Assembly: GCA_947453335.1 (NCBI GenBank)
Contig: CANGFP010000001.1
Location: forward strand, 1 to 64,000
Length of the DNA: 64,000 nucleotides
Direction: 5' to 3'
Source of the DNA: Opitutia bacterium
Lineage (GTDB): Bacteria; Verrucomicrobiota; Verrucomicrobiia; Opitutales; UBA953
Both the position numbers and the translations under genes were made by a program. The notes below the pieces were generated by a model. The model was not told the DNA's origin. It saw only the letters and a list, made by a program, of their open reading frames with translations, and did no database searches. Each line of letters starts with the position of its first letter. The stretch's first letter is position 1. Below, piece after piece: positions 46,344-59,861 of the stretch.

Positions 46344-47471
46344 TTACGAGATGCGCTGCGGCATCACGACGCAGAGGAAGTCTTCCTTCAGGCCGCGGAT
46401 GACGCCCGGGGAGAGGTCGTCCTTGAACTCGAAATCGAGCTCGTCCTCGGTGACCGCCTTGAGCGGCTCGGTGACGTACTGCGGGTTGAAGGCGATGTTC
46501 ACCTCGGGACCGTCGTACTTCACGGCGATCGGCTCATGCGCCTCGCCGGAGTCCGACTTCGCGGTGATCTCGAGGTTCTGGTTCTTCTTCGAGACGCTGA
46601 ATCGGATGGTGTTGTTGCGGTCGTCGCACATCAGCGCGGCGCGGGCCACGCTGTCGAGGAGCTTCTCGCGCTCGAGGCGGACCTTGCTGCCGGCCTCCTT
46701 CGGGATGACCTGGCGGTAGTTCGGGTAGTTGCCTTCGACGACCTTGGAAACCAGCTGGATGCGGTCCACGAGACCCTCGTCGTTCTTGGGGATGTCGATG
46801 GTGAAGCCGACCTGGCGCTCGTTGTGCGAGACGTGGGCCTTACCGCCGACCTTCAGGAGGCGCTGCAGTTCCGCGATGGTGCGGGCGGGCAGGATCAGCG
46901 CGAGGGCCTTGTCCGGACCTTCAAGCGCGCGTTCGCACTTGGCGAGACGCCGGCCATCGGTGGCGACGACGGTGAGCTTACCGTTCGAGAACTCGAAGAA
47001 GACGCCGTTGAGGATGTAGCGGTTCTCGTCGGTCGACTGCGCGTAGCTGACCTTGCGCAGCATGGAACCGAGATCCTCCTGTTCGATGGAGATCGTGGGC
47101 TGACCGGAGAAGCTGGCGATCGGGGGGAACTGGTCGGCAGGCAGGCCGGCGATCTGGAAGACGGAACTGCCGGAGGTGACCTTGACGCGATCCTTACCGG
47201 TGAGTTCGACGACGGTCTCGGCGCCCGAGAGCGAGCGGACGATCGGGACGAGCTTCTTGACGGGCAAGGTGATGCGGCCCGGGGAAGTCACGGTGGCCTT
47301 GATGCGGCAGCAGATGCCGAGGTCGAGGTTGGTCGTCGTCAAGGTCACCGTATCGCCTTCGGCTTCGATCAGCACGTTCTGCAGGATCGGCATCGTGGCG
47401 CGGTTGCCGACGACGTTGGTGACGCTGGAGAGGCCGTTGAAGAAATGATTACGGTTTACCTTGAACTTCAT
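46344..47471 (-). CDS. dnaN: DNA polymerase III beta sliding clamp
   Basis: A 375-residue clamp protein. MKFKVNRNHFFNGLSSVTNV is the family N-terminus, followed by the three clamp folds: ATMPILQNVLIEA; RYILNGVFFEFSNGKLTVVA with TDGRRLAK; and NPQYVTEPLKAV. The C-terminal VVMPQRI is the normal end (VVMPMRL type) that lines the binding pocket. It encircles DNA and tethers polymerase. The start at 47471 excludes 18 non-conserved upstream codons. dnaA is not adjacent in this window; the upstream gap looks like a replication origin or regulatory region. Confidence 0.97.
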   Translation of the reverse strand: MKFKVNRNHFFNGLSSVTNVVGNRATMPILQNVLIEAEGDTVTLTTTNLDLGICCRIKATVTSPGRITLPVKKLVPIVRSLSGAETVVELTGKDRVKVTSGSSVFQIAGLPADQFPPIASFSGQPTISIEQEDLGSMLRKVSYAQSTDENRYILNGVFFEFSNGKLTVVATDGRRLAKCERALEGPDKALALILPARTIAELQRLLKVGGKAHVSHNERQVGFTIDIPKNDEGLVDRIQLVSKVVEGNYPNYRQVIPKEAGSKVRLEREKLLDSVARAALMCDDRNNTIRFSVSKKNQNLEITAKSDSGEAHEPIAVKYDGPEVNIAFNPQYVTEPLKAVTEDELDFEFKDDLSPGVIRGLKEDFLCVVMPQRIS

Positions 47472-47535
47472 GATGCTGACAGGTTTGAGGCTGCGAGGGG
47501 TCTGTTGCAATCCATCAATGCCCACTTCCGGAGGG

Positions 47536-47724
47536 TGTGTATTAATAGATTACCCTTTGAATTAAATACAGTAACACCCGTAAGGGTCGGAAGCCCGTGG
47601 ATAGTTCCCCAAGGTGTTGAAAGCAGGTGGGATGGGCTTTTCGGAGGACTGTGCATAGGCTGCGAATAGGGCCACCCTTGTTCACATGGACCCAGAAGCC
47701 CCGATGCCTCACCCCTTATTCACA
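47536..47724. other. Candidate replication origin / DnaA-box cluster upstream of dnaN
   Basis: Most of the 248-base gap between dnaN and pssA. It contains an A+T-rich segment (47536-47573) standing out in a G+C-rich genome. It also has several 9-mers near the DnaA box TTATNCACA: TTATTCACA (47716-47724, exact), TTGTTCACA (47678-47686, one mismatch), TGTGCATAG (47650-47658, one mismatch on the other strand), TGTGTATTA (47536-47544, one mismatch) and CGTGGATAG (47596-47604, two). The exact box overlaps the pssA stop codon. Proximity to dnaN and to parS sites 9 kb away supports an origin; a dnaN promoter regulated by DnaA is the alternative. Confidence 0.45.
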
Positions 47725-48610
47725 CTCCAGGCTCGGTTTCGTCCTCATCCTCAGGAGCGGGGTCCGTCTCCTCCTTGCGGAGCAGGAAGAAGTGTCGGAT
47801 GACCCCCCAGGCGATGTAGCCGAGGAAGACCGCCGGGAGGGCGAATTCGCGGTAGCGATAGGCGGCCACGGCCACCAAGATGATGAGGATGAAGCCGCGG
47901 GAACGTGTCTTCGTGTTCCAATCGACCTTCTTGAAGCTGGGGAAACGCACGTTGCTGACCATCAGGTAGGAGATGATCAGCATCAGCGGCAGGAGGGTCC
48001 ACGACCAGGATTGCAAGGGCAGCACGTCCGTCTGCGCGCCAGGAGCGACCTTGATGATCTTGGAGAGCACGAGCACCAAGGAGGCCATCATGCCTGCCGC
48101 CGCGGGCGAAGGCAGGCCCACGAAATCACCTCCTGCCGCGCGTTTTTCGTTCCCGGGAACCAGAGGGTTGGTGAGCACGTTGAACCGGGCGAGGCGGACG
48201 CCGACGCACAGCAGGTAGATGAAGGCCAACAGCCAGGTCACGAGCTGGATGTCGTCGTTGGTGCCCGGGTTGATGATGAGGAAGCAGGCCATCAGCGCCG
48301 GGGCGACGCCGAAGGAGACGGTGTCCGCAATGGAATCGAACTCGGCCCCGAAGAGCGATTCGCGCTGCGTGGCGCGGGCCACGCGCCCATCGAAGAGGTC
48401 GCAGACGCAGGCGAACAGGATGAACCAGACCGCCATCACGTAGTGGTCCGAGCGGTCGGCTGCGCTGGGCGTGGTGAAGCGTGCTTCGATGCACTCCTTC
48501 ATGGCCAGGAAGCCGCACAGCATGTTGCCCGCGGTGAAGAGGTTCGGGAGGAGGTAGATGCGCGCGGCTTCCTCCGGGGAGTTGTAGCGCTGGGGGGTCG
48601 GGGTGCTCAC
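47720..48610 (-). CDS. pssA: CDP-diacylglycerol--serine O-phosphatidyltransferase
   Basis: A 296-residue CDP-alcohol phosphatidyltransferase with about eight membrane segments. The catalytic motif reads DGRVARATQRESLFGAEFD followed by SIAD, exactly DGxxAR-x8-G-x3-D-x3-D. LLPNLFTAGNMLCGFLAM is the typical PssA N-terminal segment, and VGLPSPAAAGMMAS matches the serine branch (FxGLPsPaAA). It makes phosphatidylserine, the precursor of phosphatidylethanolamine. The C-terminus is an acidic tail (APEDEDETEPGV). Followed 2 bp upstream by the RelE-like gene. Confidence 0.93.
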   Translation of the reverse strand: MSTPTPQRYNSPEEAARIYLLPNLFTAGNMLCGFLAMKECIEARFTTPSAADRSDHYVMAVWFILFACVCDLFDGRVARATQRESLFGAEFDSIADTVSFGVAPALMACFLIINPGTNDDIQLVTWLLAFIYLLCVGVRLARFNVLTNPLVPGNEKRAAGGDFVGLPSPAAAGMMASLVLVLSKIIKVAPGAQTDVLPLQSWSWTLLPLMLIISYLMVSNVRFPSFKKVDWNTKTRSRGFILIILVAVAAYRYREFALPAVFLGYIAWGVIRHFFLLRKEETDPAPEDEDETEPGV

Positions 48611-56440: not shown

Positions 56441-56456
56441 TGTTCCACGTGGAACA
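56441..56456. other. parS centromere-like site (1)
   Basis: TGTTCCACGTGGAACA is a perfect 16-bp palindrome matching the general chromosomal parS form TGTTNCACGTGNAACA. It lies between mnmG and phoB, 22 bases from the mnmG stop. ParB binding here would mark the origin region for segregation. Confidence 0.85.
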
Positions 56457-56477: not shown

Positions 56478-58367
56478 TTAGTTGGCTTTCTGCGCCCGGA
56501 ATAGGACCATCAGCAGTGAGATGTCTGCTGGGTTTACTCCGCTAATGCGGCTGGCCTGCCCAAGGGTCTGGGGTTGGATGGCGTGTAGCTTCTGTCGAGC
56601 CTCGATGCCCAATCCATAGGCCTTGAGGAAATCAAATCCTACAGGGACCTTGAAGGCTTCAAGGTCGTGGAGTTTGCGGGCAGATCGGCGCTCGCGGTCC
56701 AAGTAGCCGCGGTATTTGACCCGGTACATGACCTCGGCTTGGACTTCAGGGGTTTCCGCCAAGAAGCTCGGCGGCAGGTCCGCCGGGACCGAATCCATCT
56801 GGCGGCGGAGCACGTCGCCAGCCAAGCCGCCGGAGATGGTGATTTTCTCCAGGTATTCGGTCCAATGCGCGACTTGGGCGGCCTTGGCCTCAATGCGGAC
56901 CAATCTGGCGGGCGGCACCAGTCCATAGTTGGCGATTTTCTCCTTTAGGCGCAATTCAGCGCTGCCGTGGTTGAAAAGCAGGCGGTATTCAGCCCGGCTG
57001 GTGAACATCCGGTAGGGTTCCTGCGTTCCTTTGGAGACCAGGTCGTCGATCAATACGCCAATATAGGCTTCGTCGCGGCCGATGACCATGGGGGTCAGGC
57101 CTTTGACCCGACAGGCAGCATTAACACCGGCCACGAGGCCTTGGGCGGCGGCTTCTTCGTAGCCAGAGGTCCCGTTGATCTGTCCAGCGAAGAAGAGGCC
57201 AGCGACTTTCTTGGATTCCAAGGTAGGGTAGAGCTGGGTCGGGGGCGCGAAGTCGTATTCCACCGCATAGGCGGGGCGTAGCATCACGGCTTTCTCTAAT
57301 CCAGGGATGGAATGGAGCATTTCCAGCTGAACCTCAAAGGGGAGGGAGGTCGACAGGCCGTTGATGTACCATTCGTCGGTGTTTCGCCCCTCAGGTTCGA
57401 GGAAGAGTTTATGGGACTCCTTTTCGGAGAACTTGACGAACTTGTCTTCGATAGAGGGGCAATAGCGCGGACCGACCCCCTTGATTTCGCCTCCATAGAG
57501 AGGGGATCGGTGAAGGTTATCGTGGACAATCTTGCCGGTGAGGCCCGAGGCCTCGGTCATCCAGCAGGATACCTGGTCGCTGCCAGGAGTCCAGCCGGGC
57601 AGGCGTTCGCCCCGTTGTTCCACGTGGAACATGTCCGACTCTTGGCGGGTGTCGTGGAAGGCAAAAAGGGTAGGGGAGGGGTCGCCCGGTTGCTCCTCGC
57701 ACTGACTGAAATCAATAGACGACCCAAGGATGCGCGGAGGGGTGCCAGTCTTGAGGCGCTGCAGTTCAATTCCAGCCTCTAAGAAACTGTTGGACAACGA
57801 CTTAGCACTAAAATCACCAAGGCGTCCCCCTTCGGTCTTGTTGGCCCCGATGTGCATCAATCCGCGCAGGAAAGTACCCGTCGTTACGACCACGGTCTTA
57901 CCATAGAAAGAGAGGTCGAGATTGGTCTGTACCCCGACGACGGCGCCGCCTTCAAAGATCAGGCCCGTCACCATGGCCTGGAAGATCGTCAGACCCGGCT
58001 GCAGTTCGCAGAGGTGCTTCATCCGGAACTGGTAGGCCTTCTTATCGCACTGGGCGCGGGGGGCTTGGACGGCAGGTCCCTTCGAGGAATTCAGCAGGCG
58101 GAACTGGATGCCGGTGGTGTCGGCGGTCAAACCCATCTCCCCGCCGAGGGCGTCGATTTCCCGGACGATATGTCCCTTGGCCTGGCCCCCGATGGCGGGG
58201 TTGCAGCTCATCTGGGCAATGGTATCGATGTTGCCGCTGAGGAGCAGGACCTCGACCCCCATGCGGGCGGCCGACAGGGCGGCCTCGACGCCGGCATGCC
58301 CGGCCCCGCAGACGATGACGTCATAAGGGCGGCTGGGGCCGAGGCGGATCTCTTTGGGTGGTCGCAT
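56478..58367 (-). CDS. mnmG: tRNA uridine-5-carboxymethylaminomethyl modification enzyme MnmG (GidA)
   Basis: A 629-residue FAD enzyme that, with MnmE, modifies the wobble uridine of several tRNAs. [20 protein letters not shown] is the FAD loop. [25 protein letters not shown] is the family signature, and [14 protein letters not shown] and [14 protein letters not shown]-type blocks are present. Two catalytic-region Cys are kept ([10 protein letters not shown] and one more). Around residues 235-265 the coding sequence is unusual: residues about 246-251 (MFHVEQ) are encoded by a complete parS site. It is 27 bp after mnmE. mnmG near the origin is common in bacteria. Confidence 0.96.
57616..57631. 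other. parS centromere-like site (2), inside mnmG
   Basis: A second exact copy of TGTTCCACGTGGAACA, 1,175 bp from the first, within the mnmG coding sequence where it encodes the MFHVEQ stretch on the minus strand. Embedding of parS in coding sequence, giving FHVE/KQ peptides, is a known feature of origin-proximal genes. Confidence 0.85.
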
Positions 58368-58394: not shown

Positions 58395-59753
58395 TCACTT
58401 CCCTATGCAGAAGGAAGCAAAGAGCTTGTCCAGCATACGCTCATTGTCGATGCGCCCGACGATCTCCCCGAGGGCGTCCAAGGCTTCCCGGCAACGGACG
58501 GCCGCCAGTTCCGTCGCGGCCGGAGGGCGGAGATGGTCCTGGGCCTGCTTCAGGGACCCGGCGGCCCGGAGCAGGGCGTCGGCGTGACGGACGCCGACGA
58601 CGAGGTCTTCGGCGCCCGGGGCCACGTCGCGCGCCACCAGGATCTCGCCGAGCCGGGCGCGGAGCGCTTCGGCGTCGCGGCCGTCGAGGAGGCACGTGGG
58701 AATCTTCACGAGGTCCGTCCGCCACGACGCGTGCGCCGGATGCGCCGGCAGGTCGGTCTTGTTCTCGATGACGAGCGTGCGGTCCGCGGCGAGCAGGCCG
58801 TCGAGTTCGGGCGGCAACGTCGGCGGCGGCGCGGAGCGGTCGACGACGAGGAGCAGGAAGTGCGCGGCGCGCGCCTGCTCGAGCGAACGCTCCATGCCCG
58901 CGCGTTCGAGCGCGGAGCCCGCGTCGCGCAACCCCGCGGTGTCGACCGCGGTGACGGCGAGCGGCAGCCCGGCGACGGGCGCCTCGAGGAAGTCGCGCGT
59001 GGTGCCGGCCTCGGCGCTCACGAGCGCGCGCGCGGTGCCGGTGAGCGCGTTGAGCAGGCTCGACTTCCCCGCGTTGGGCGCCCCGACGACGGCGACGCGC
59101 AGGCCCGCGCGCAGCGTGGCGTCGTGCCGGGCCGTCCTGGCGTATCCGGAAAGTTCTGACTCGATTCCGGCCAATGTCCGCAGGGGTCCCGTCGGGTCCT
59201 CGGCGGGGAGGTCTTCCTCGGGGAAGTCGATGTGCGCCTCCAGGTGCGCCAGCGCCGCGAGCAGGCGGTCGCTCCACGCGGCGACCTGCCGGCCGAGCTC
59301 GCCGGCGAGCTGGCGGCGGGCCGAGGCGAGCGCGCGTTCGGAGCTCGCGTGGATCAGGTCGGCGACGGCTTCGGCCTGGGTCAGGTCGAGCTTGCCGGCG
59401 AGGAACGCGCGGCGCGTGAACTCGCCCGGCTCCGCGGCGCGGCAGCCGCGCGCGAGGCAGTCCTCGGCGAGCCGGCGGGCGAGCAGCGGATTGCCGTGGC
59501 AGGTGATCTCAAGCGAGTCGCCGCCGGTGAACGAGCTTGGCGCGCGCGACAGGACCACGACGACCTGGTCGATGGGGTCGCCGGCGACGTCGCGCCACAC
59601 GGCGACCGTCGCGCGCTTCGCGGTGGGCGGCGTCGCGCGACCGCAGGCGGCGCGCGCGATCTCCGCGGCGAGCGGGCCGTCGACGCGGAGCACGGCGAGC
59701 GCGGAGCGGCCGGCGGGCGTGGCGACGGCGACGATGGTCTCGGTGGTGGACAT
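58395..59753 (-). CDS. mnmE: tRNA modification GTPase MnmE (TrmE)
   Basis: A 452-residue GTPase. The start at 59753 gives [20 protein letters not shown], the normal family N-terminus. The formyl-THF-binding domain, then the helical domain with FPEEDLP, then the G domain follow: [37 protein letters not shown] and NKTDLP. The C-terminal CIGK motif with the catalytic Cys is complete (LFASFCIGK). It acts with MnmG on tRNA wobble uridine. mnmE-mnmG is a compact operon. Confidence 0.96.
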
Positions 59754-59861
59754 GCGGCGGACCATCCCAAGGGGGCGGGGCAGGGGAGGCAAGCGGTGTC
59801 ATCGAGGCTGAAAAGGCTGGAAGGGCGGGAGGGGAACGGCACAGTTCGCCCCATCACTCCC

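Follow-up and report, generated by a model that had tools for sequence, protein, structure and literature searches.

Gene organization of the dnaN–pssA locus

The window analysed here is a 64,000-nucleotide stretch of an Opitutia bacterium (GenBank assembly GCA_947453335.1), which forms the start of a 465-kb contig (CANGFP010000001.1) in a genome of 1.13 Mb (68% GC, 63% complete). Its dnaN gene, whose closest matches (mostly 82–98% identity) are in freshwater MAGs labelled Opitutae or Opitutales, is separated by a short gap from a pssA-like gene (Table 1). Farther along the window lie mnmG and mnmE, usual neighbours of origins in other bacteria. Two parS sites, which the first-pass annotation had placed 9 kb away, are found 8.7 and 9.9 kb from the gap, and the 1.13-Mb assembly contains no others. 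The same annotation had stated that dnaA is not adjacent; dnaA was indeed not found in the 1.13-Mb assembly (63% complete), and it is distant from dnaN in two relatives described below. The gap does not adjoin dnaA; a position next to dnaA is usual for an oriC and not required of one.

Table 1. Features of the dnaN–pssA gap and its surroundings in the window
Feature	Position	Strand	Basis
dnaN, DNA polymerase III beta clamp	46344-47471	-	Pfam PF00712, PF02767, PF02768
dnaN-pssA intergenic gap (~250 bp), candidate oriC	47472-47719		Conservation in ~50 relatives; GC-skew minimum at equivalent place in four relatives
A+T-rich stretch adjoining trios, presumed first DNA to open	47531-47568		Composition
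TAATACACA, DnaA box-like, one mismatch, not conserved in relatives	47536-47544	-	Alignment of relatives
DnaA-trio block TTA CGG GTG TTA CTG (dnaN sense)	47569-47583	-; trio strand +	Alignment of relatives
TTCCG within 12-nt box-trio spacer	47588-47592	-	Invariant in 48/48 relatives
DnaA box CTATCCACG, two mismatches, nearest to trios and pointing at them	47596-47604	-	1.48 bits/column
DnaA box-like CTATGCACA; CACA part kept, remainder not	47650-47658	-	1.03 bits/column (background level)
Weak DnaA box CTATTCGCA; TTATTCGCA/TTATTCACC/G in many relatives	47661-47669	-	1.59 bits/column
DnaA box TTGTTCACA, one mismatch, best conserved 9-mer of the region	47678-47686	+	1.88 bits/column
DnaA box TTATTCACA, exact to TTATNCACA, overlapping pssA stop codon	47716-47724	+	1.78 bits/column, 48 relatives
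pssA-like CDP-alcohol phosphatidyltransferase	47720-48610	-	Pfam PF01066
parS TGTTCCACGTGGAACA	56441-56456		16-mer match
mnmG (gidA)	56478-58367	-	Pfam PF01134, PF13932
parS TGTTCCACGTGGAACA, within mnmG	57616-57631		16-mer match
mnmE, after mnmG	58395-59792		PF12631, PF10396

DnaA boxes and the A+T-rich region cluster in the gap

Taking TTATNCACA as the reference DnaA box and counting 9-mers within one mismatch of it, we found four in the gap region (starting at 47536, 47650, 47678 and 47716), where local composition predicts 0.24; four were reached in 0 of 2000 simulations. Other 250-bp stretches in 400 kb of the contig hold at most two each, and none of 20 simulated 400-kb sequences (first-order Markov) had more than two per 250 bp. 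Among the 80 such 9-mers in the 1.13-Mb assembly, those of the gap form the densest cluster. The genome-wide count is not enriched (80 vs 89 for the reversed pattern), so the signal is the clustering of the boxes and not their number. The best 60-mer of the A+T-rich pocket is 63% AT; within the contig's first 400 kb, 0.06% of 60-mers match it. Both a box cluster denser than chance and an adjoining A+T-rich region, which count as oriC criteria, are present in the gap.

The first-pass annotation had reported at least four near-match boxes beside dnaN, an exact one overlapping the pssA stop codon and an A+T-rich pocket, and had named equally dense boxes elsewhere as an argument against an origin. 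The four boxes, the exact box and the pocket were all recovered, a two-mismatch fifth box was recognised at 47596 on the minus strand, and no equally dense cluster was seen in either the 400 kb or the 1.13 Mb. Of its bounds, 47536–47724, the right one was retained, while the left one was moved to 47531 since the 9-mer at 47536 is not conserved in relatives and, judging from their alignment, is probably fortuitous.

The runner-up cluster of the same genome (three in 218 bp, G000:C3:35332-35549; L228) has a box spacing like that of the dnaA promoter. It was rejected as a dnaA locus, as it lies upstream of an RRM-like, glycine-rich ORF.

A conserved DnaA box faces a block of DnaA-trios

The 250 nt upstream of dnaN can be aligned across about 50 relatives. 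Scoring of information content in 48 of them put two DnaA boxes at the top of all 9-mers (1.88 and 1.78 bits per column vs a region mean of 1.05); next come the trio block and, close to dnaN, a TTGC motif. Read in the dnaN sense, the conserved core consists of the box CTATCCACG (CTATCCACA or TTATCCACG in some relatives), a 12-nt spacer, the trio block and A+T-rich DNA. The commonest form of the block in relatives is CTA CTG ATG CTA CTG GTA TTT ATA, in which the T at every third base corresponds to A-centred DnaA-trios on the other strand; the 3' end of the trio strand faces the box, as in the BUS. The spacer fits the published BUS spacer peak of 10–13 bp. The published BUS rule sets a minimum of three 3'-NAN-5' motifs no more than 16 bp from a box (PMC8287927), and over half of the relatives carry 5 to 8 trios, with at least five consecutive ones at the fixed place in 28 of 50.

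The trio centres of the window itself are T G T T T in the dnaN sense, or A C A A A on the trio strand, giving three consecutive A-centred trios at 18 nt from the box and a C-centred trio 2. Because trio 2 is CGG in the subclade of the window and a one-base phase shift follows trio 5, a strict 3'-NAN-5' scan fails in this subclade, which the imperfect run and the shift make a weaker example than most relatives. A strict automated BUS scan (box within two mismatches plus at least four NTN) missed the window and many relatives owing to box divergence and C-centred trios; anchoring on TTCCG was used in its place. When the trio block was searched for with a strict genus-wide DNA pattern, just 5 of 55 genomes matched, because the pattern did not include the additional G found after trio 5 in most relatives.

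Two further motifs accompany the core. The spacer motif TTCCG matches no known origin element and is possibly a degenerate second box. TTGCC/TTGYCAG, at 47504–47514 (about -33 to -43 of dnaN), is kept across the genus and can still be recognised in other families; it could be a promoter element or a part of the origin.

Inferred changes at trio centres are all from A to C

Changes at the trio centres were reconstructed by parsimony on a dnaN tree of 49 genus-level relatives. The five centre columns carry 9 inferred changes, compared with 28 at the first and 22 at the third positions and a background of 7.1 per column; with nine events in five columns, the trio centre is conserved as in the BUS. 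All nine replace T by G in the dnaN sense, which on the trio strand corresponds to A to C. Elsewhere in the gap, T changed 112 times to C, 87 times to G and 74 times to A, and the difference from this spectrum (87/273 to G) gave a Fisher p of ~5e-5 in a test that was done after the pattern had been seen, its expectation coming from independent published work. Ten bootstrap trees returned nine or ten T to G changes and none to A or C, one tree adding a G to T reversal.

Strand separation in vitro survives a C at the trio centre of B. subtilis, and cells grow and initiate better with C there than with G or T, a tolerance explained by contact of the C amine with Asn187. Alignment of one DnaA from the same genus as the window revealed that it retains the trio-reading residues of 8btg (Glu183, Asn187, Ile190, Lys222, Glu223 and Arg264). 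Of 19 genomes from other families of the order, 14 show the succession of a box (up to three mismatches), exactly 4 nt and trios. G occupies 20 of the 24 non-T centres of trios 2–5 there and makes up 15% of the region, in a count that ignores relatedness and concerns an element recognised by eye before counting. Several of these G centres could derive from an ancestral AGA trio that changed position as ATA units were gained or lost. From the sequences compared, the chances seem about even that Opitutales use an A-or-C trio code, in which recognition of the exocyclic amine by DnaA via Asn187 would make G or T at the centre very rare. That DnaA homologues might read other trio sequences was raised by the authors of PMC10721633, and the restriction of the changes to A to C suggests that such freedom at the trio centre is used in nature.

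GC skew of relatives and the positions of dnaA, parS and parB

Cumulative GC skew, which the first-pass annotation had recommended as a check, gave no readable signal in the genome of the window: the first 400 kb of its contig show no skew switch, whether in the raw or in the strand-balanced third-position curve, perhaps reflecting frequent inversions or weak strand bias. The origin of this genome was therefore placed from its relatives, and the check came out in favour of the locus in four other Opitutales genomes, in which the skew minimum is ~0.4, ~1.6, ~6 and ~8.5 kb from dnaN. The clearest case in distance is G040, a one-contig complete chromosome of 2.63 Mb from another family. Sampling at 40 places put its minimum in the 2280–2300 kb stretch, and base resolution then located it at 2,293,674; the start of dnaN (2,292,151–2,293,275) is 0.4 kb away. 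In G057 (locus L039, 86% dnaN identity) the minimum is at 93,807 and the dnaN start at 92,408; G046 shows a clear V with its minimum at 168,640 (dnaN, 173,874–174,992). The skew switch has a permutation p of <1/5000 in both G046 and G057. G055 has a local minimum at 897,324 within the sign-change stretch (dnaN, 904,712–905,848). In a further genome, G058, the sign change fell in the right stretch after codon balancing alone, the raw curve being uninformative.

Among these four genomes, G040 and G055 have near-complete chromosomes. The dnaA gene of G040 is at 680 kb, ~1.0 Mb from dnaN on the circle, and that of G055 at 1,154 kb, ~0.25 Mb from dnaN; both genes are in the positive-skew arm. Upstream of dnaA (L060-L079), most families of the order have two conserved same-orientation boxes at ~-30 and ~-320, which probably serve autoregulation.

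One or two parS sites were present in 15 of the 16 genomes scanned. Where dnaN is placed, parS is 9–22 kb from it in most genomes and ~72 kb in G049 and G052; in G021 one of the two parS sites is on a different contig from dnaN. Chromosomal parB is distant from both parS and dnaN in G040 (G040:C1:984636-985163), G055 (G055:C1:2527118-2527645) and other relatives. In G040, parB is located approximately at the skew maximum, near the terminus, and parS 18 kb from dnaN.

Discussion

With its box cluster, its conserved anatomy and the skew of its relatives, the dnaN–pssA gap is very probably the chromosomal origin oriC, and the first-pass reading of a candidate oriC upstream of dnaN gains support accordingly from all three. 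By analogy with B. subtilis and other species, the double-stranded boxes at 47596–47724 would be bound by DnaA encoded at a distant dnaA locus, and the box at 47596 would load a DnaA filament onto the plus strand at 47569–47583. The filament is expected to capture the trios by their middle bases, which are A except for the C of trio 2, and to open the A+T-rich DNA at 47531–47568 for helicase loading. Two forks would then depart from the gap in opposite directions, and the parS sites 9 kb off would mark the origin region for segregation.

Boxes alone are not proof of an origin, since the dnaA promoter carries them even though the skew rules out an origin there. They might instead be DnaA operator sites for the transcription of dnaN, perhaps also of pssA, with the origin elsewhere. 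The gap must after all house the dnaN promoter, the TTGCC motif ~40 nt before dnaN could be an element of it, and the order offers in dnaA a gene with two conserved upstream boxes that is no origin. Regulation, however, leaves the trio periodicity and the location of parS unexplained, and it does not agree with skew minima at dnaN in four relatives; we consider an exclusively regulatory role very unlikely, while the gap may possibly serve both origin and regulation. As to where else the origin might be, the region upstream of dnaA has a precedent within the phylum in Methylacidiphilum infernorum (PMC2474590) and the boxes at ~-30 and ~-320 in most families of the order, but dnaA of G040 and G055 lies inside the positive-skew arm, making an origin at dnaA exceedingly improbable.

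An origin in the dnaN–pssA gap resembles known systems in different respects. It shares with the BUS of B. subtilis (PMC8287927, PMC6669920, PMC10721633) a box aimed at the trios, a short spacer, 3-nt-periodic trios (an imperfect run in the subclade of the window) and A+T-rich DNA, as well as the trio-reading residues conserved in the same-genus DnaA. Unlike in B. subtilis, trio centres in Opitutales appear to be naturally A or C rather than A only, the genus of the window has a strong box 12 nt from the trios with the invariant TTCCG between, and the origin lies beside dnaN without dnaA. Synechococcus elongatus PCC 7942 (PMC3480399, PMC7198777) is an established case of a dnaN-linked origin with a distant dnaA, and its oriC likewise occupies a gap beside dnaN and contains a box cluster; the cyanobacterial origin differs in having 11 boxes with the consensus TTTTCCACA and a different neighbour. 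As the phyla are unrelated, the dnaN-linked arrangement probably arose separately in cyanobacteria and Opitutales. The oriC of M. infernorum, from the same phylum and also mapped by GC skew, lies 250 nt upstream of dnaA, whereas that of Opitutales is placed at dnaN. The first-pass annotation had called the arrangement unusual: the distant dnaA is real, but S. elongatus provides a precedent (PMC3480399), so the Opitutales arrangement is a variant, in which oriC is linked to dnaN and the trio centre is apparently A/C, and not a new kind. No description of an Opitutales oriC was found in the part of the literature covered by our search.

The locus provides a freshwater group of Verrucomicrobiota with a skew-supported origin of conserved architecture, and tools that search for origins by way of dnaA would be misled in this Opitutales group. 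If the A/C trio code is true, nature would have its own version of the C-for-A substitution that is functional in B. subtilis, and origins of this type would escape current scanners built on 3'-NAN-5'. The trio variants of Opitutales are ready sequences for trying alternative trio centres.
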